This document shows, piece after piece, positions 5,549-58,557 of a stretch of DNA of 64,000 nt; positions within the stretch are counted from its first letter, which is position 1; every line of letters begins with the position of its first letter. The notes beneath the pieces are model-generated. The model saw only the letters and a list, made by a program, of their open reading frames with translations. It ran no database searches and was not told the DNA's origin. A program made the translations under genes and the position numbers. The stretch covers positions 1 through 64,000 of the forward strand of contig NZ_VUNM01000002.1 in the NCBI RefSeq assembly GCF_009695655.1. The letters are read 5' to 3'. The stretch is from Sharpea porci (GTDB lineage: Bacteria; Bacillota_I; Bacilli_A; Erysipelotrichales; Coprobacillaceae).

Positions 5549-5555
5549 ACGTGTA

Positions 5556-5769
5556 TAAATCGATGATCAGGAATAGTAATAGGGAATGCTGCCAAGAGAG
5601 AGCTCATGGCTGGTGGAAATGAGCGACAGGAAACTATGAACTCACCTGTAAGATGCTTAGGTGATAAGCTTAAGTCGTAACTCGCGTTAAGAGGCTAAGA
5701 GCATGAATATTGTCTTCATGAACTAAGGTGGTACCGCGCTAGTCGTCCTTAGGTTATGAGGACTTTTTT
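5556..5769 (+). promoter_or_regulatory. T-box leader controlling leuS
   Basis: The untranslated leader has the invariant T-box sequence AAGGTGGTACCGCG at 5725-5738, which pairs with the uncharged tRNA acceptor end. A specifier region reads GAACTCAC, giving the leucine codon CTC at 5641-5643. A terminator stem, GTCCTT (5745-5750) with GAGGAC (5758-5763), is followed by a T-run and competes with the antiterminator. Uncharged tRNA-Leu with anticodon GAG would therefore allow read-through into leuS. The CTC specifier agrees with the downstream gene, which supports the assignment. Confidence 0.92.
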
Positions 5770-14882: not shown

Positions 14883-16646
14883 ATGGCAAGTGTTTCTTCA
14901 TATATTAATCATATTATTACAGTTGTGGGTTATCGCAATTTAATTATCATTGGCATTATCCTTGTACTTCTCATTATTGCCATTATTATTTATCGCTCAT
15001 TGCGTCTAAAAGTTTATCGACAGGAAATTGTTGAAATAGAAAATCATGTCAATGGCATTAAATCTTTGCCCATCCAATATCGCTTAGGCAGAGTGAAGTC
15101 AATTGCCAAAAATATGAGTGAGGTCGCCCAAAAATATACTCGCTTTGCGGCAGAATTTGAGCGTCTTTCAGAATTTCAGCAAAATGAGCTTGGTGTCTTA
15201 TTGAATGATGTTGATGAACAATTATTCTATGGCAAAATTGGTGGCGTTGGTCATAAATTAAATGAATTAAAAGAAATGGCTGATGAATATGATCGCGATT
15301 CTAAGGCATTACTTGCCGAAATAGAAAAAGTGACAGAAATAGAGAATGAACAGCGTATTGAAATCATTAAGGTCAAAGAGAAATATCGTACGGTGGCTAA
15401 TGCTTATGATAGTATTCGTGTCAAGGTGGAAAGTTTTGTGCCTGAATTAGCTGATATTTTTAAGAATATTGATGATGATTTTGTGAAACTTGAAGGGATG
15501 ATGAATAATCAGTTATTTGCTGATGCGAAAGTATTTACTAATGAATTAGATCAACGTATTGATATGCTTTCAGAAAATATGAAAGATCTCCCATCATATG
15601 TTTCTGTTGTTAAGCAGTTACTACCTAGTAAGATTCATGATATTGAAAAAATGATTCAGGAACTCGCTGATGATGAATATGCGCTTGAGAAATTCGATGT
15701 TGAAAATCGTTATGATACAATTGTTGAAGAATTGGAAAAGAGCACATTACTGGTGAAAGATGTTAAAATTAAGGAAGCAGGAGCAACCTTAGAAACATTA
15801 ACTGATCATATTGAATCACTTGCTGTAGATTTAAATACGGAAAGAGAATCTTTTGTGAAATTCCAGAAAGCATGGGCAAAATGTAAAAAAGTTTATGAAG
15901 ATATTTATCAACAATATAAGAAAGCTCTTGCTGATCTAGATCAATTATCAACATATTATATTATCAATGAAAACGAAGTGACTTTAAGAAAGACAAATCA
16001 TGATTTTATGGTTCTTTATGATAACTATAAACAGATTGAAGAAGAAGTCATTTCTGGTCATTTCTCCTATAGTGATGCTCTTTTAAGAGTTGAAAAACTC
16101 AATGAGGATGTCAAGGAACATGCTGATCATATTACGGACTTCAATGCCCAACGTAATGCCTACTATAAAACAGAACAAAAAGCTATTGAAGAGCTTGAAA
16201 ATATCAACATTGTTTTATTAGAGACAAAGAGTGAAATTAAGAATCGTCATCTACCAATGATCAATGATTCCTATAAAGACTACATTCAAGAATCCTATGC
16301 GAAAGCGAGTGGTATTCAGTCTTTTAGAAATAGACGTCCAATTAGTGTTGAAGAATTATCAGAAAAGGTCAAAGAAGCTAAGGATATTATCTATAAATTA
16401 TATGATAATGTTCATAATCTTGTTGTTACGGCAGAGATGGTTGAAGAGGCTATTGTTTATGGTAACCGCTATCGTTCAACTTATCTTGAAGTCAATACAG
16501 AATTGACAAAGGCGGAAGTGCTCTTTAGAAATGGCGAATATACAAAAGCTTTACAGACAGCTGTTGATATTATTGAAAAAATACAGCCGGGTTCTTATGA
16601 ACACTTAATTAAAAGACAGGAGACAGCTGCTACAGAAGGTGCTTAG
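14883..16646 (+). CDS. ezrA: Septation ring formation regulator EzrA
   Basis: EzrA is a membrane-anchored regulator that stops FtsZ rings from forming at wrong places and takes part in the division machinery of Gram-positive bacteria. The 587-residue protein has one N-terminal membrane span (residues 19-40, NLIIIGIILVLLIIAIIIY) with the rest cytoplasmic and almost wholly helical, as in the spectrin-like repeats of the family. Length matches the family (about 560-575). In Bacillus ezrA lies by rpsD and by nifZ-thiI. Here the rpsD side is kept, while a metal-chelate and sulfite-reductase operon lies between ezrA and nifZ. Confidence 0.92.
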   Translation: MASVSSYINHIITVVGYRNLIIIGIILVLLIIAIIIYRSLRLKVYRQEIVEIENHVNGIKSLPIQYRLGRVKSIAKNMSEVAQKYTRFAAEFERLSEFQQNELGVLLNDVDEQLFYGKIGGVGHKLNELKEMADEYDRDSKALLAEIEKVTEIENEQRIEIIKVKEKYRTVANAYDSIRVKVESFVPELADIFKNIDDDFVKLEGMMNNQLFADAKVFTNELDQRIDMLSENMKDLPSYVSVVKQLLPSKIHDIEKMIQELADDEYALEKFDVENRYDTIVEELEKSTLLVKDVKIKEAGATLETLTDHIESLAVDLNTERESFVKFQKAWAKCKKVYEDIYQQYKKALADLDQLSTYYIINENEVTLRKTNHDFMVLYDNYKQIEEEVISGHFSYSDALLRVEKLNEDVKEHADHITDFNAQRNAYYKTEQKAIEELENINIVLLETKSEIKNRHLPMINDSYKDYIQESYAKASGIQSFRNRRPISVEELSEKVKEAKDIIYKLYDNVHNLVVTAEMVEEAIVYGNRYRSTYLEVNTELTKAEVLFRNGEYTKALQTAVDIIEKIQPGSYEHLIKRQETAATEGA

Positions 16647-16658
16647 GCACCTTCTTAT
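16635..16658 (+). terminator. Weak terminator of ezrA
   Basis: GAAGGTGC (16635-16642) pairs with GCACCTTC (16647-16654) around the TTAG loop that contains the stop codon; the following T-run is short. Confidence 0.55.
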
Positions 16659-16686
16659 TGTGAAAGAAAGTAAGGTTTTGTATACT
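16658..16686 (+). promoter_or_regulatory. Promoter of the importer-asr-chelatase operon
   Basis: TTGTGA (16658-16663), a 17-base spacer and TATACT (16681-16686) lie only 19 bases before the first start codon. The leader is too short for a cobalamin riboswitch, so B12 control by RNA is unlikely. Confidence 0.7.
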
Positions 16687-16704: not shown

Positions 16705-17550
16705 ATGAGAAAAACAAGAATTTATACATTTGTCTTAATCTGTGCATTGATGCTGACTGGATGCACAAAGCCAAAGTCTACACCTAAGACAAGCTTGCAG
16801 AATGTGATTGCATGCTCTAAGTCGCTTGGTGAGATGTGGCAGCTTTCTGGTGGAAAACTGGCAGGTATTACTGATGATGGAAAAGAGCTAGGTAAGAATA
16901 TAAAGGTTGTGGGGACATTAATGCGTCCAAGTGTCGAGAAGATAATTGCTATGAAGCCTAGTCTCGTCTTAATCACCGGTGACATTCCAACCCAACAAAA
17001 AGTCAAAAAGGCACTCACTGATGCATCAATTAATGTCAAAACAGTTAATGTTGATGATTTTCAAGATTATGATCGTTATATGAAAGAATTTACAAAAATG
17101 AATAAGCGTGAAGATCTCTATCAAAAGAATGTTGTTGATGTTAAAAAACGTATTCAAGTGCTCAAAGAGAAAGTGAATTTTAAGAAACAATCTTATTTGA
17201 TGATACGTGTATCATCAATGAAAAACAAAGTCTTAAAAAATGATTATTTTGGCTGTGAGATTGTGAATGATATGAATATGGTCAATATAGCTCAGGATGA
17301 TCGTGCGCTTGATGATATTAATGTGGAAGAAATCATGAAGAAGAATCCTGACTATATCTTTGTGGTTTATCAGGGCGAAGAAAAACAAGCACAAGAAGCT
17401 TACAATAAGATTGCTTCAATGCCAGGATGGGATCAGTTGAGTGCTTTGAAGAAGAATCATGTGAAAGTGTTGCCTAAGAACTATTTCCAATTTAAGCCTA
17501 ATGCGAAATGGGATCAGGCATATCAGTACCTTTATGACTATCTCGCTTAA
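16705..17550 (+). CDS. Metal-chelate/tetrapyrrole-type ABC transporter substrate-binding lipoprotein
   Basis: The 281-residue protein has a lipoprotein signal (MRKTRIYTFVLICALMLTGC) with the lipidated Cys20, then a BtuF/FecB-type periplasmic-binding fold: IACSKSLGEMW, VGTLMRPSVEKIIAMKPSLVLI in the first lobe, a long helix, and VEEIMKKNPDYIFVVY in the second. This class III binding-protein family takes up iron-siderophores, haem or cobalamin. The ligand cannot be read from sequence. It heads a compact operon with its permease, its ATPase, asrABC and a chelatase, which points to iron or a tetrapyrrole as cargo. AAAGGAGAGG precedes the start. Confidence 0.85.
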   Translation: MRKTRIYTFVLICALMLTGCTKPKSTPKTSLQNVIACSKSLGEMWQLSGGKLAGITDDGKELGKNIKVVGTLMRPSVEKIIAMKPSLVLITGDIPTQQKVKKALTDASINVKTVNVDDFQDYDRYMKEFTKMNKREDLYQKNVVDVKKRIQVLKEKVNFKKQSYLMIRVSSMKNKVLKNDYFGCEIVNDMNMVNIAQDDRALDDINVEEIMKKNPDYIFVVYQGEEKQAQEAYNKIASMPGWDQLSALKKNHVKVLPKNYFQFKPNAKWDQAYQYLYDYLA

Positions 17551-18511
17551 AAAGATGATTTGTGTGGGTCTTATTATCAGTGTGATGGCATTGATGATTT
17601 CTTTATTTGCTGGTTTATCATTTCCAATAAGCCAGCAATTAACTTTTTCACTGAGTGAAAGCGCTAAGACAATCATACTAAAAGTGCGTATCCCACGGTT
17701 TTTAGCCGCTTATTTTGTCGGTGCAGGTCTGGCAATTGCCGGCTTAACAATGCAAAGTGCACTTAATAATGCCCTAGCTTCACCAAGTGTTATTGGCATT
17801 CATGGCGGAGCGGGTTTCTTTACGCTTCTTGCTGCCCTTATTTTTCCTTACTACCTGCATGCACGGATGTTTTTTGCTTTTATAGGAGCACTGGTGAGTG
17901 CTTTGGCAGTTTATGGCATCAGTCATCAGGCTGGTGTCAGTAAGACAACTTTACTGCTTGCTGGTTTGGCTGTAAGCAGTCTAATGAGTGGTTTTGTGAA
18001 TGCCATGATCACTTTCTTTCCTGAAACGGTAGGGGATAAGGTTGCTTTTAATCTTGGGGGCTTTTCAACAGTTATCACGAGTCAGCTCTATTTTGCGATA
18101 CCTGTCATTATTATTGCCATAGTGATCTTATTGAAACTTAGTCGTGGCATTGATTTGTTATTACTAGGAGATGAGATGGCAACAAGTCTTGGTATTAATG
18201 TTGGGCATTTACGCTTAGGGCTTATTGTTTTAGTGGCTTTATTAAGTGGGGTAAGTGTGGCCATAAGTGGTTTGATTAGTTTTGTGGGACTTATTGTTCC
18301 CCATATTGTAAGAAGAATGACTAAGGCTGATACAAAAGTTCATATTATCGCCTGTGGTTTATTTGGTGGGAGTTTCTTAGTTTATTCTGATTTGCTAGCG
18401 AAATATCTCTTTTATCCCTATGAATTACCTGTTGGGTTATTGTTAAGTATGATTGGGGCACCATTCTTTATTTATTTGTTGATTCATAAGAAAAGGAAAC
18501 TGAAATTATGA
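17534..18511 (+). CDS. FecCD-family ABC transporter permease
   Basis: This integral membrane permease of the BtuC/FhuB/FecCD family (about 325 aa) has roughly ten hydrophobic spans. Family motifs are visible: LSESAKTIILKVRIPRFLAAYFVGAGLAIAGLTMQ near the N terminus and GLIVPHIVRRM near residue 255, the cytoplasmic coupling region that touches the ATPase. The start is uncertain: ATG at 17501, 17534 and 17555 are all possible and none has a good Shine-Dalgarno sequence. The 17534 start gives a 17-base overlap with the lipoprotein gene, suggesting translational coupling. It overlaps the ATPase gene by four bases (ATGA). Confidence 0.88.
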   Translation: MTISLKKMICVGLIISVMALMISLFAGLSFPISQQLTFSLSESAKTIILKVRIPRFLAAYFVGAGLAIAGLTMQSALNNALASPSVIGIHGGAGFFTLLAALIFPYYLHARMFFAFIGALVSALAVYGISHQAGVSKTTLLLAGLAVSSLMSGFVNAMITFFPETVGDKVAFNLGGFSTVITSQLYFAIPVIIIAIVILLKLSRGIDLLLLGDEMATSLGINVGHLRLGLIVLVALLSGVSVAISGLISFVGLIVPHIVRRMTKADTKVHIIACGLFGGSFLVYSDLLAKYLFYPYELPVGLLLSMIGAPFFIYLLIHKKRKLKL

Positions 18512-19269
18512 TTGAGATGCATGATTTAGTCGTTGAATATGGTCATCGCCGAGTTCTATGTATAAATAATGTCAAATTAAAAAAGGGCGAAATAGTGACC
18601 ATAATTGGCCAAAATGGTGCTGGAAAATCTACACTTCAAAAATGTTTGACTGGTCTAACTGAATATAAAGGTGCTATCTTAGTAGATGGAAAGAGCTTGA
18701 AAGAGCTTCCATCACGCCTGCGAGCACAAAAAATTGTCTACTTGCCTCAGGCCCAAAGTTCACCTGTTATGCAAGTTGCTACATTAGTAAGTCATGGCCG
18801 TTTCCCATACCTTGGCTATAGTCATACGTTAAGAGAAGAAGATAGGCGAATTGTTGAGGAAGCAATGAAGGCTACACATGTTGATTTATTGAAGGATCGT
18901 TTTCTTGATGAATTATCTTTAGGAGAGAGACAACGCGCTTTTCTAGCAATGGTTATTGCTACTGAAAGTGACTACTTACTCTTGGATGAACCTGCGACTT
19001 ATCTTGATTTAATGAGCCAGCATGAACTGATGCAAATTCTCTTATCGCTTAAAAGGCAGGGAAAGGGAATTGTGCTTATTAATCATGATTTACCGGTAAG
19101 TTTTTCAATGAGTGATCAGCTTATATTGCTTGATCATGGGGAAGTCTTACAAAGTGGTACGCCAGAAGATTTTTTAGCCCATCAAGATCATTTACGCGAA
19201 GTTTTTCATGTCGGCATGAAAAAAATAGAAGATCCGCATTTATTATATCAATATGTCATCATTCAATAG
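18508..19269 (+). CDS. FecE/BtuD-type ABC transporter ATPase
   Basis: The 253-residue ATPase energises the FecCD-type permease encoded just upstream. Walker A is GQNGAGKST near residue 38, the signature is LSLGERQRAF, Walker B is YLLLDEPATYLD and the switch histidine is in LINHDLPVSF. The start codon overlaps the preceding stop (ATGA), and 10 bases separate its end from the asrA start, so the importer and asr genes are almost certainly on one transcript. Confidence 0.92.
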   Translation: MIEMHDLVVEYGHRRVLCINNVKLKKGEIVTIIGQNGAGKSTLQKCLTGLTEYKGAILVDGKSLKELPSRLRAQKIVYLPQAQSSPVMQVATLVSHGRFPYLGYSHTLREEDRRIVEEAMKATHVDLLKDRFLDELSLGERQRAFLAMVIATESDYLLLDEPATYLDLMSQHELMQILLSLKRQGKGIVLINHDLPVSFSMSDQLILLDHGEVLQSGTPEDFLAHQDHLREVFHVGMKKIEDPHLLYQYVIIQ

Positions 19270-19279
19270 GAGGAAGAAA

Positions 19280-20287
19280 ATGGGATTTGTGATGAATAAG
19301 GAAGACTTTTCAAAGACAATAGAAAAGCTTTCTCAAGATTATCGATTATATGCACCAGTTGTAAAAAAGGGAGAAGGGCGTTGTCTTGATGAAGATATTG
19401 TACGCTATGATTTTATTAAGGATGCTGATGAGATTGAATTAGAATTGAAGTCTGATTACTCTTTTAAAGAAATCCTTTTACCTTTGTCAGAAACTTTGTT
19501 CTATTTTACTGAAAATGAGACAAAAGTAGCTGATCGTGATTTATCAGATGTTCTCGTCTTTTTAAGAAGCTGTGATTTACATGGCTTGCAAAGACTTGAT
19601 GATATGTATTTAAGAAATGGCAGAGAGAAAGATTTTTTCTATAATCGTATTCGTGAACATGTCCATTTTGTCTTAATTGGCTGTACGCATTCCTATAAGG
19701 ATTGCTTTTGTGTATCAATGGGAGCCAATAAGATTGATGATGGTTATGTCTTTTCAATCGAACAAAGCAATGATGGCTTTAAGAGTGAAATCAAAGATGA
19801 TGCTTTTGCATCCTACTTTGTAGGCCAGGCTGAAAATGTGGCAGTTAGCTATGTGACTGAAAATGAAACAAAGGTCAATGTTCCTGATCATGTTCCACTA
19901 TCAATCTATAAGTTAGATATGTGGCGTGAGTATGACGTAAGATGTATAGGCTGTGGTCGCTGTACTTTAGTTTGTCCAACATGTACATGTTTTACAATGC
20001 AGGATACATTCTATGATGCAAAAGGTAAAGTGGGTGAACGCCGTCGTGTGAATGCAAGCTGTATGATTGATGGCTATACGAATGTTGCTGGAGGAGGTAG
20101 CTATCGTCAGCCTAAAGGTGAACGTATGCGTTTTAAAGTCTTACACAAAGTCAATGATTTTAAAGCTCGCTTTGGTTACAACATGTGTACAGGATGTGGT
20201 CGTTGTGATGCTGTTTGTCCTGAATACATTTCATTTTCAACGCTCATTAATAAGCTTGATGCAGAAATCAAGAAGGAGGCAGAATAA
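19280..20287 (+). CDS. asrA: Anaerobic sulfite reductase subunit A
   Basis: AsrA (335 aa) is the ferredoxin-like electron-transfer subunit of the dissimilatory-type anaerobic sulfite reductase, which turns sulfite into sulfide in the cytoplasm. Two 4Fe-4S motifs are visible near the C terminus: CIGCGRCTLVCPTCTC and CTGCGRCDAVCPEY. The middle matches AsrA (LRSCDLHGLQRLDDMYL, CFCVSMG). ATG at 19280 is chosen because AGGAGG (19268-19273) precedes it; the frame open from 19253 overlaps the ATPase gene without a binding site. asrB follows after two bases. Confidence 0.93.
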   Translation: MGFVMNKEDFSKTIEKLSQDYRLYAPVVKKGEGRCLDEDIVRYDFIKDADEIELELKSDYSFKEILLPLSETLFYFTENETKVADRDLSDVLVFLRSCDLHGLQRLDDMYLRNGREKDFFYNRIREHVHFVLIGCTHSYKDCFCVSMGANKIDDGYVFSIEQSNDGFKSEIKDDAFASYFVGQAENVAVSYVTENETKVNVPDHVPLSIYKLDMWREYDVRCIGCGRCTLVCPTCTCFTMQDTFYDAKGKVGERRRVNASCMIDGYTNVAGGGSYRQPKGERMRFKVLHKVNDFKARFGYNMCTGCGRCDAVCPEYISFSTLINKLDAEIKKEAE

Positions 20288-20289
20288 TC

Positions 20290-21078
20290 ATGGAAAATGC
20301 ATATATTCCTTTTCCCTCTCAAGTATTAGATGTTATCAAACATACTGATATTGAATATACTTTTCGTTTGGAATTTACTGGCGATGTTAAACCAGGTCAG
20401 TTCTTTGAAGTATCCATTCCTAAATTTGGGGAAGCACCTATCTCAGTAAGTGGTATTGGCGATCATTATGTTGATCTGACAATTAGACGTGTTGGTGTTG
20501 TCACCAATGAAGTATTTGAAAAATATGTAGGTGACTATTTGCTTCTTAGAGGTCCCTATGGTAATGGGTTTGATGTCAATCTCTATAATGATGGAGAAAC
20601 AGTTGTTGTAGCAGGGGGAACCGGTGTATCACCAGTAAGAGGGGTCATTGATGCTTTAAGCCAGAGTGATGATCCACAAAATAAATATGCGATTGTTGGT
20701 TTTAGAAGCCCCGAACATATGCTTTTTAAAGATGATTTAAAAGCATGGGATAAGAAAATGAATCTTATCTTAACAGTGGATTCTGCAAAAGAAGGCTACC
20801 AGGGGAATGTTGGCTTAGTGACAAAATATATTCCCGACTTACCTATTCAAGATGTGAATACAGCTAAGGCCGTTGTGGTAGGCCCTCCGGCAATGATGCG
20901 TTTTTCTGTCATGGGCTTACTTGAAAAAGGGTTTAAAGAAGAAAATATCTGGGTTTCGCAGGAACGTAAGATGTGCTGTGGACTAGGTAAATGTGGCCAT
21001 TGTCGTATTGGTGAAAAATATGTCTGCATTGATGGACCTGTCTTCAACTATACTGAATCAAAGGGCTTAATCGACTAG
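20290..21078 (+). CDS. asrB: Anaerobic sulfite reductase subunit B
   Basis: AsrB (262 aa) is the flavin and NAD(P)H-binding subunit that feeds electrons into the sulfite reductase. It has the ferredoxin-NADP reductase layout: a flavin barrel with LTIRRVGVVTNEVF, LRGPYGNGFDV, the nucleotide-binding AGGTGVSPVRG, and at the C terminus a 2Fe-2S-type cysteine cluster CCGLGKCGHCRIGEKYVC. AAGGAGG lies ahead of the start and 13 bases separate it from asrC. Confidence 0.93.
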   Translation: MENAYIPFPSQVLDVIKHTDIEYTFRLEFTGDVKPGQFFEVSIPKFGEAPISVSGIGDHYVDLTIRRVGVVTNEVFEKYVGDYLLLRGPYGNGFDVNLYNDGETVVVAGGTGVSPVRGVIDALSQSDDPQNKYAIVGFRSPEHMLFKDDLKAWDKKMNLILTVDSAKEGYQGNVGLVTKYIPDLPIQDVNTAKAVVVGPPAMMRFSVMGLLEKGFKEENIWVSQERKMCCGLGKCGHCRIGEKYVCIDGPVFNYTESKGLID

Positions 21079-21091
21079 GAGGATCGAAAAT

Positions 21092-22081
21092 ATGGGATTA
21101 GATATTAATGCTAAGAAAATGATGAAAAATGCCTTTCGTATCTCCAAGGTCAGAGGTGAAACTGCTTCGCGTGTGCGTATACCTGGAGGCCTTATTGATG
21201 CGAAAAGTCTTGTCAAAGTAACCGAAATTGCAGAAAAATATGGGAATGGTCAGATCTTCTTGACAAATCGTCAAGGTATCGAAATTCCTGGTATTAAATG
21301 GGAAGATGTTGATGCTGTTAAAGAAGAACTTCAGTCCATTATTGAAGCTATTGGTACAAATCAGGTTGATGATGAAACTGGCTATCCAGCTAGTGGTACA
21401 AGAAATGTAGTGGCATGTCCAGGGGCGCGTCTTTGTCCATTTGGCTGTTATGATACAACAGAACTAGCAAGAAAGATGGAAGATGTCATCTTCCCCAATA
21501 ACCGACATGTCAAGATTGCTTTTACCGGCTGTTCCAATGACTGTGCTAAGGTGAGAATGGATGATATTGGGATAATTGGTATGACTGAACCACAATATGA
21601 CCCTGATCGTTGTATTGGTTGTGAGCAGTGTGTGAAATGGTGCAAGAAGAGATCAGTTGGCGCTTTGTCAATGTTGAATGGCAAGGTTAAACGTGATGAA
21701 GATTTATGTATTGGCTGTGGTGTTTGTGTGCACTATTGTCCAACTCGTGCCTGGACAAGAAGTAAAGAACATTATTTCCGTGTTGTCTTAATGGGACGTA
21801 CTGGCAAGGTCAATCCAAGATTAGCGGAAGACTTTGCAAGATGGATTGATGAAGAGTCCATTCTTAAGATGGGACACAATCTTTATGCCTATATTGAAGA
21901 ATATATTTCTAAAGATGCTCCTAATGGCAAAGAACATGTCGGCTATATTGTTGATCGTACAGGTTTCGAGACATTCTATGAATATCTCATGAAAGATGTG
22001 ACACCAGGACCTAAGGCTGAAATTGCAACGACGATGTATTGGGGCGGCAAACGTTATGACCGTTCCAACAATCTCAAATAA
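21092..22081 (+). CDS. asrC: Anaerobic sulfite reductase subunit C (sirohaem subunit)
   Basis: AsrC (329 aa) is the catalytic subunit and carries sirohaem coupled to a 4Fe-4S cluster. The cysteines of that centre are seen in CPGARLCPFGC and TGCSNDC. Two extra 4Fe-4S ferredoxin motifs follow (CIGCEQCVKWCKK and CIGCGVCVHYCPT). The N-terminal part VRIPGGLIDAKSL and FLTNRQGIEIPGI is the nitrite/sulfite reductase ferredoxin-like half-domain. The stop codon overlaps the start of the chelatase gene by one base (TAATG), tying the enzyme to supply of its cofactor. Confidence 0.95.
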   Translation: MGLDINAKKMMKNAFRISKVRGETASRVRIPGGLIDAKSLVKVTEIAEKYGNGQIFLTNRQGIEIPGIKWEDVDAVKEELQSIIEAIGTNQVDDETGYPASGTRNVVACPGARLCPFGCYDTTELARKMEDVIFPNNRHVKIAFTGCSNDCAKVRMDDIGIIGMTEPQYDPDRCIGCEQCVKWCKKRSVGALSMLNGKVKRDEDLCIGCGVCVHYCPTRAWTRSKEHYFRVVLMGRTGKVNPRLAEDFARWIDEESILKMGHNLYAYIEEYISKDAPNGKEHVGYIVDRTGFETFYEYLMKDVTPGPKAEIATTMYWGGKRYDRSNNLK

Positions 22082-22818
22082 TGAAAGGGATATTAATTGT
22101 CAGTCATGGCACATTGGATCAAAGAGCTAAAGCGCGTTCTCTTGATCTTCTTTTTGAAGAAAACAAGCAGAGAGCAGATATTGTTCTTGCTTGCTTTGTT
22201 TCCAAGAAGACGATTGCAGGACAGAATGTATTATCTCTTGATCAAGCCATGAAGAAAATGCTGGACCTGGGTGTTGATGATCTTCATATCTATAATACAT
22301 TTGTCATCCCTGGTGATATTTATCATCAGTTTCTTACGACCATTATTCCATATGAGGCTTTCTTCAAGCGACTTGTCATTGAAAAGCCATTACTTCATGA
22401 AAACTGTGATTTCTCTTTGCTTGCCCGTATGCTTACAAGAGAATATGCTATGAAATCTAATCGGACATATCTTCTTATAGGACATGGCTCCACAATCCAA
22501 ACAAATAAGCTTTATGCCCATCTTGAAGCAGCTTTTAAGAAGCAAGCTATGACAAATGTGCATCTTGTCTTAATACATGGCCATCCTTCTATTGATGATG
22601 TGATGCCTACGCTCAATAAAAAACAAAAAATCATGCTATGTCCATTAATGATGAGCACTGGACATCATGTTGCTCATGATGTGAAGCAGTTTAAGAAATC
22701 ATCAATCGAGACAAAACTTCTTGAAAATAACTTTGATGTTGAAGTGCTTGATCAGGGATTGGCAGAATATCGAACAATACGAGATTATATCATGCATAAT
22801 GAAAAGACTTCTATTTAA
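22081..22818 (+). CDS. CbiK-type sirohydrochlorin chelatase
   Basis: The 245-residue protein has the two-lobed class II chelatase fold. The first lobe begins ILIVSHGT, the second YLLIGHGS followed by LCPLMMSTGHHVAHDV, matching the CbiK anaerobic cobalt/iron chelatase with its metal-binding histidines. In this operon the likely job is to put iron into sirohydrochlorin to make sirohaem for AsrC; cobalt insertion for B12 is the alternative. No genes for making sirohydrochlorin are seen in the window. The ATG starts within the asrC stop codon, and a terminator overlaps its own stop. Confidence 0.82.
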   Translation: MKGILIVSHGTLDQRAKARSLDLLFEENKQRADIVLACFVSKKTIAGQNVLSLDQAMKKMLDLGVDDLHIYNTFVIPGDIYHQFLTTIIPYEAFFKRLVIEKPLLHENCDFSLLARMLTREYAMKSNRTYLLIGHGSTIQTNKLYAHLEAAFKKQAMTNVHLVLIHGHPSIDDVMPTLNKKQKIMLCPLMMSTGHHVAHDVKQFKKSSIETKLLENNFDVEVLDQGLAEYRTIRDYIMHNEKTSI

Positions 22819-22834
22819 AATAGAAGCCTTTTTT
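22808..22834. terminator. Bidirectional terminator after the chelatase gene
   Basis: CTTCTAT (22808-22814) and ATAGAAG (22820-22826) form a stem around the stop codon, with a T-run on the plus strand and TCTTTT on the minus strand. It also ends the small minus-strand gene at 22835. Confidence 0.75.
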
Positions 22835-58430: not shown

Positions 58431-58557
58431 AACAAGGCAAAATGATATATTCAACAGTGTTGTAGACCTCTAGCTACAACCGCACATAAAAGGTATTAAA
58501 TGTACGAATGTACTGCCTCGGTTGGCGAGTCTAAGAATACAAAAAGGAGGTACTTGA
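58423..58557 (+). promoter_or_regulatory. rplU promoter and L21 leader
   Basis: TTGACT (58423-58428), a 17-base spacer and TATATT (58446-58451) form the promoter. About 100 untranslated bases follow, with a GTTGTAG/CTACAAC hairpin (58459-58465 with 58474-58480) and AAGGAGG just before the ATG. L21 leaders at this place are known in Bacillota; feedback by L21 is inferred. Confidence 0.75.

Follow-up and report, generated by a model that had tools for sequence, protein, structure and literature searches.

An operon of Sharpea porci that joins a FecCD-type importer, a sulfite reductase and a chelatase: a probable module for siroheme salvage and use

Organization of the operon

The window analysed here comprises the first 64,000 nucleotides of contig NZ_VUNM01000002.1 of Sharpea porci, a relative of S. 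azabuensis from rumen or gut. Its positions 16705-22818 hold, on the forward strand, an operon of seven genes that encode a lipoprotein, a FecCD permease, an ATPase, AsrA, AsrB, AsrC and a CbiK-type chelatase. The cargo of the importer encoded by the first three genes is the subject of this report. The genes and their flanking signals are as follows.

16634..16655, + strand: hairpin at the 3' end of ezrA; -15.1 kcal/mol, z -3.04
16658..16686, + strand: promoter-like site TTGTGA-17-TATACT; consensus match
16705..17550, + strand: substrate-binding lipoprotein, 281 amino acids (aa), lipobox Cys20; Peripla_BP_2, 96 bits
17501..18511, + strand: FecCD-type permease, 336 aa; PF01032, 268 bits
18508..19269, + strand: ABC ATPase, 253 aa; PF00005, 97 bits; Walker A GQNGAGKST, signature LSLGE
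19280..20287, + strand: AsrA, 335 aa, start ATG 19280; TIGR02910, 460 bits (cut-off 323)
20290..21078, + strand: AsrB, 262 aa; TIGR02911, 414 bits (cut-off 289)
21092..22081, + strand: AsrC, 329 aa, predicted siroheme subunit; TIGR02912, 467 bits (cut-off 324)
22081..22818, + strand: CbiK-type class II chelatase, 245 aa; PF06180, 113.7 bits (cut-off 26.2)
22801..22833, + strand: terminator-like hairpin with T tract at the operon 3' end; -10.5 kcal/mol, z -5.12

The reading frames of the substrate-binding protein (SBP) and the permease overlap by 50 bp, those of the permease and the ATPase by 4 bp, and those of AsrC and the chelatase by 1 bp. The remaining gaps are 10 bp (ATPase to AsrA), 2 bp (AsrA to AsrB) and 13 bp (AsrB to AsrC). 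The start of AsrA at ATG 19280 was set by comparison with the Sharpea azabuensis orthologue. A first-pass annotation of the window had described seven genes in series, each overlapping the next or separated from it by no more than 13 bases, and their order and span on the + strand hold. The same seven-gene order is present in the source genome (G000), in S. azabuensis DSM 18934 (G031) and in a third genome, G020. The SBPs of G031 and G020 are 84% and 65% identical to that of the source genome, respectively. Retention of the order in these two genomes indicates that the arrangement is not due to chance.

The hairpin at the end of ezrA is a probable terminator that insulates the operon from this upstream gene. 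One promoter-like site lies within the 58-bp gap between ezrA and the operon. Such sites are no more common in the region than in shuffled sequences, so the single promoter that had been claimed has a candidate site and is plausible only. The reported lack of a cobalamin riboswitch was confirmed by an Rfam scan of the window. The scan also found a T-box leader (5554-5753) and an L21 leader (58468-58542).

The importer proteins

The lipoprotein with its lipobox LTGC, the permease, and the ATPase with its Walker A motif are encoded in one operon and are those of a FecCD-type (type II) ABC importer. The lipoprotein matches the IsdE and BtuF equivalogs weakly and falls short of both (77.6 bits, cut-off 298.65, and 28.2 bits, cut-off 234, respectively). 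Among PDB entries it is closest in sequence to siderophore-binding proteins, for example FeuA. The AlphaFold model of the lipoprotein (pLDDT 88) resembles many siderophore-, haem- and B12-binding proteins. The highest TM-scores among the matches listed are those of IsdE with haem (2q8p, 0.79/0.85), and BtuF (5ysc) scores 0.74/0.80. The modelled likeness to haem-bound IsdE fits a flat tetrapyrrole cargo without proving it. In an alignment of SBPs from the whole importer clade described below, Trp45, Tyr122, Arg168, Lys264 and Trp269 are conserved, Tyr122 invariantly, and His, Met and non-lipobox Cys residues are all less than 70% conserved. The predicted ligand of the lipoprotein is a late tetrapyrrole of the siroheme branch.

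Sulfite reductase and chelatase

The products of asrA, asrB and asrC all exceed their equivalog cut-offs. Cysteines 109, 115, 147 and 151 of AsrC form the C-X5-C and C-X3-C siroheme motif. These features predict an anaerobic sulfite reductase. The chelatase is well above the cut-off of its Pfam family and below that of the NCBIfam CbiK cobaltochelatase equivalog (83.8 vs 400 bits). Its closest solved relative is FetB of Porphyromonas gingivalis (9b86). In an alignment with this protein and with Salmonella CbiK (1qgo), the catalytic residues His145 and His207 of the Salmonella enzyme have counterparts in its His135 and His196. No close relatives of the chelatase were found in viral contigs, and no PHROGs family matched it.

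Absence of the ring pathway from Sharpea

The source genome is 99.4% complete. Profile searches of the whole of G000 and of its genus-mate G031 found no HemB (PF00490), HemC (PF01379) or SUMT (TIGR01469); this negative covers these three, HemA, HemL, HemD and SirC not having been searched separately. Control genomes gave the expected HemB, HemC and SUMT matches in the same searches. The sole gene of G000 with the tetrapyrrole-methylase fold (PF00590) is RsmI. Porphobilinogen synthase, hydroxymethylbilane synthase and uroporphyrinogen-III methyltransferase are thus all absent, and known enzymes cannot build the ring in G000. Assembly gaps were set aside as the cause, since the S. azabuensis isolate and 82 of the 88 importer genomes (see below) agree. 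The first-pass annotation had named a full set of sirohydrochlorin genes outside the window as a finding that would remove its salvage idea, and the idea has survived this test. That annotation left the cargo as either iron or a tetrapyrrole. Without HemB, HemC and SUMT, iron import alone could not give such a cell siroheme, and the linkage of the importer to reductase and chelatase genes in the absence of HemB favors the tetrapyrrole.

Distribution in the family and order

Among 43 genomes of the family, asrC is over the cut-off in 16, and 13 of these also have SUMT; SUMT is over the cut-off in no family genome that lacks asrC. The asrC genomes without SUMT are exactly G000, G031 and G030, and in all three the importer adjoins asrABC. 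In G036, G028 and G254, asrABC is directly followed by hemA, hemC, cobA/hemD, hemB and hemL, with sirC also in the cluster of G036 and G028. The comparison of asrC neighbourhoods that had been proposed at the outset shows, in several relatives, ring-synthesis genes in the place that the importer has beside asrABC in Sharpea.

The order-level sample comprised 316 genomes, 28 of which have asrC. SUMT is present in 2 of the 9 asrC genomes with the importer vs 18 of the 19 without it (Fisher p=2.2e-4), and HemB in 1/9 vs 16/19 (Fisher p=4.1e-4), p-values that overstate independence because the genomes share kinship, a point to be held against the reading proposed below. The chelatase that follows the asr operon is CbiK in G000, G031, G020 and G091, CbiX-like in G030 and SirC in G069. 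Because these three enzymes interchange and each works at the final stage of siroheme formation, the cargo would appear to be a metal-free ring. The SUMT gene at G043:C9:123365-124011 is broken into two frames, by frameshift or decay.

The importer clade beyond the order

A search with seven lipoproteins returned 312 relatives, and 80 of them were kept. Many are from rumen or gut organisms, and they include Lachnospiraceae, Butyrivibrio, Treponema, other Spirochaetia, Clostridia, Defluviitalea and Slackia. In the SBP tree 96 loci, the order-level loci included, group apart from 13 outgroup importers. Linkage was scored within 9 kb, with NIR_SIR proteins counted at ≥150 bits. NIR_SIR proteins are encoded near the importer in 55 of the 96 clade loci, a chelatase or SirC in 35, and either in 68. 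Neither NIR_SIR, chelatase nor SirC occurs within 9 kb of any of the 13 outgroup importers.

The linked chelatases are of three types, CbiK, CbiX and SirC. The linked reductases are more varied: asrABC in 21 loci, with AsrC of two divergent groups, stand-alone NIR_SIR proteins of 317-325 aa, and assimilatory forms of 287-291 aa. A fusion of Pyr_redox and NIR_SIR domains (852-861 aa) adjoins the importer at L212, L215, L216, L219, L220, L222 and L223. It looks like a further siroheme reductase; the one example scanned, that of L212, also has a rhodanese domain. Locus L119 additionally carries cysD, cysN and an O-acetylhomoserine sulfhydrylase-like gene, and L147 a sulfate transporter. Weak matches to the AsrC profile were not counted as siroheme proteins; a scan of two of them identified TPP-dependent oxidoreductases that contain a ferredoxin domain. 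Four Butyrivibrio genomes (L106, L108, L109, L110) have identical SBPs, perhaps through recent transfer or as near-clonal assemblies. The importer-asr cassette also occurs in bins of metagenome-assembled genomes labelled Aeriscardovia (L095) and Chloroflexi (L107), where misbinning is possible.

None of 36 importer genomes from several phyla has SUMT over the cut-off, and 82 of 88 have no HemB. SUMT-like matches of 140-168 bits were rejected as SUMT; the one in L176, a locus scanned in full, is CbiF, with CbiL present. This locus (G329:C66, 4558-11387) belongs to a rumen spirochaete that has the importer, asrABC and a short chelatase, no SUMT, and HemB only as a 46-residue fragment. Its corrin genes are CbiL, CbiC, CbiD, CbiF, CbiH and a CbiJ-E-T fusion. 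The corrin pathway of this organism starts where the importer would deliver, which suggests that B12 is made from an imported ring. Corrin-ring genes in importer genomes without SUMT over the cut-off are also found at L173, L174, L175, L178 and L179. Two genes scanned at L173 are CbiH and CbiD, and the other such clusters were read by open reading frame. The remaining clusters with 140-168 bit SUMT-like matches are taken as probably similar to that of L176.

Proposed function and its alternatives

In our view the operon is probably a module for the salvage and use of siroheme, in which the FecCD-type importer takes up a late ring of the siroheme branch, most likely sirohydrochlorin. We infer the ligand from the gene context and the missing pathway, and also infer the direction and metal of the chelatase reaction. 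The lipoprotein would capture a late, metal-free ring shed by other microbes, most likely sirohydrochlorin and possibly precorrin-2, and the permease and ATPase would bring it in. The CbiK-type chelatase would then insert iron. The resulting siroheme would go to AsrC, which would reduce sulfite to sulfide with electrons from AsrAB. With somewhat less assurance, we favor a wider reading as well. The lipoprotein would belong to a widespread clade of importers (Bacillota, Spirochaetota and others, from guts, rumen and digesters) for late siroheme-branch rings, namely sirohydrochlorin or precorrin-2 and perhaps uroporphyrinogen in one subclade. Its members would finish siroheme, and some of them vitamin B12, from the rings of their neighbours.

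Several observations count against these readings. G218, a single contig, has asrABC (L089, G218:C1) and yet no match to SUMT, HemB or the importer. G020 has the operon together with SUMT and HemB, and is one of six importer genomes with HemB; the other five belong to the Lacrimispora/Hungatella group. A NirJ2-type radical-SAM gene lies directly upstream of the importer at L166 (8940-9974) and L160 (8522-9520), and HemB is present in the group of L166. HemB in the five Lacrimispora/Hungatella-type genomes and the NirJ2 neighbour at L166 imply that the cargo may vary by subclade. At L214, L221 and L224, whose genomes lack HemB, the importer has SUMT-HemD and SirC as neighbours, and this gene content suggests that these loci may import an earlier ring. 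No chelatase is nearby at some asr-importer loci (G085, Butyrivibrio), and the Sharpea chelatase has Ile80 where Salmonella CbiK has Glu89.

The lack of a close chelatase at several importer loci would suit an importer of siroheme or another metallated isobacteriochlorin, with the chelatase swapping or stripping the metal. The kinship of the chelatase to FetB, which is linked to haem chemistry, points the same way; according to a 2026 review, FetB inserts Mn into protoporphyrin IX and possibly removes Fe from haem (PMC13402209). We regard a metallated cargo as unlikely. CbiK, CbiX and SirC replace one another beside the importer, and what they have in common is that they complete siroheme synthesis. 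The corrin genes of importer genomes without SUMT require a free ring for cobalt. The SBPs also have no conserved axial His, Met or Cys, though Tyr122 is invariant.

Two further explanations are even less probable. Fe-siderophores are frequent cargo of FecCD transporters, and the siderophore binders among the PDB sequence matches of the lipoprotein would agree with an iron supply for siroheme and Fe-S clusters, the ring being made by non-homologous enzymes. We hold this to be very improbable, given the joint absence of HemB, HemC and SUMT from a nearly complete genome. It gives no reason why the importer should oppose SUMT and HemB, and the best structural match listed is IsdE with haem. Slightly less probable still is import of haem or cobalamin, the position next to asrABC then reflecting chance or a role in general metal homeostasis. 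The weak profile and fold likeness to IsdE and BtuF is in its favor, but neither equivalog cut-off is reached, and the linkage to siroheme reductase and chelatase genes recurs in many subclades and beside none of the outgroup importers.

If a late siroheme-branch ring is indeed the cargo, the clade, which spans several phyla, may provide the uptake route that has been missing for late precursors of tetrapyrroles. In the rumen, the reduction of sulfite, the formation of sulfide and part of the B12 synthesis would then rely on rings shared among microbes. An association of Sharpea with low-methane sheep has been reported (PMC6776011). With the importer clade named, the salvage question can be tested in cultured S. 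azabuensis DSM 18934.

Comparison with known systems

In the open literature, with most subscription papers and bioRxiv preprints outside the scope, no uptake transporter for siroheme or sirohydrochlorin was found. Importers of the BtuCDF and IsdE types have the same parts (a Peripla_BP_2 lipoprotein of the same fold, a FecCD permease and an ATPase), and they carry tetrapyrroles. The importers described here differ in forming a separate SBP clade and in having genes for siroheme enzymes, not for haem or cobalamin, as their linked partners.

Shelton et al. (2018) proposed five types of tetrapyrrole precursor salvagers, of which the 5-aminolevulinic acid type was proven experimentally; the passages of that paper covered here name no ring transporter (PMC6461909). 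As in those salvagers, upstream tetrapyrrole genes are missing and downstream enzymes are kept: the three upstream enzymes searched for, HemB, HemC and SUMT, were found in neither G000 nor G031. In the same passages salvagers are defined for cobamides, by a complete pathway for the corrin ring and nucleotide loop. G000, in which RsmI is the only PF00590 gene, has no such pathway, and its end product would be siroheme, with a candidate transporter. The corrin part is present in the importer genome G329. A comparable case is the corrin "enigma" of P. gingivalis (Roper et al., 2000, as cited in PMC6461909 and PMC4410737), an organism that makes corrins from precorrin-2 onward without the front genes; bacteria of this kind have been on record since that paper. 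In the passages covered of Shelton et al., P. gingivalis is given as an example of an organism without precorrin-2 synthesis (PMC6461909). Its FetB/IhtB system contains the nearest solved relative of the Sharpea chelatase, but it belongs to the Bacteroidota and FetB has been described for protoporphyrin and haem.

A parallel in gene order is offered by the asrABC-siroheme operons of G036, G028 and G254, where asrABC is likewise directly followed by cofactor genes. Those organisms make the ring (hemA, C, D, B, L, cobA, sirC); Sharpea has the importer in that place.

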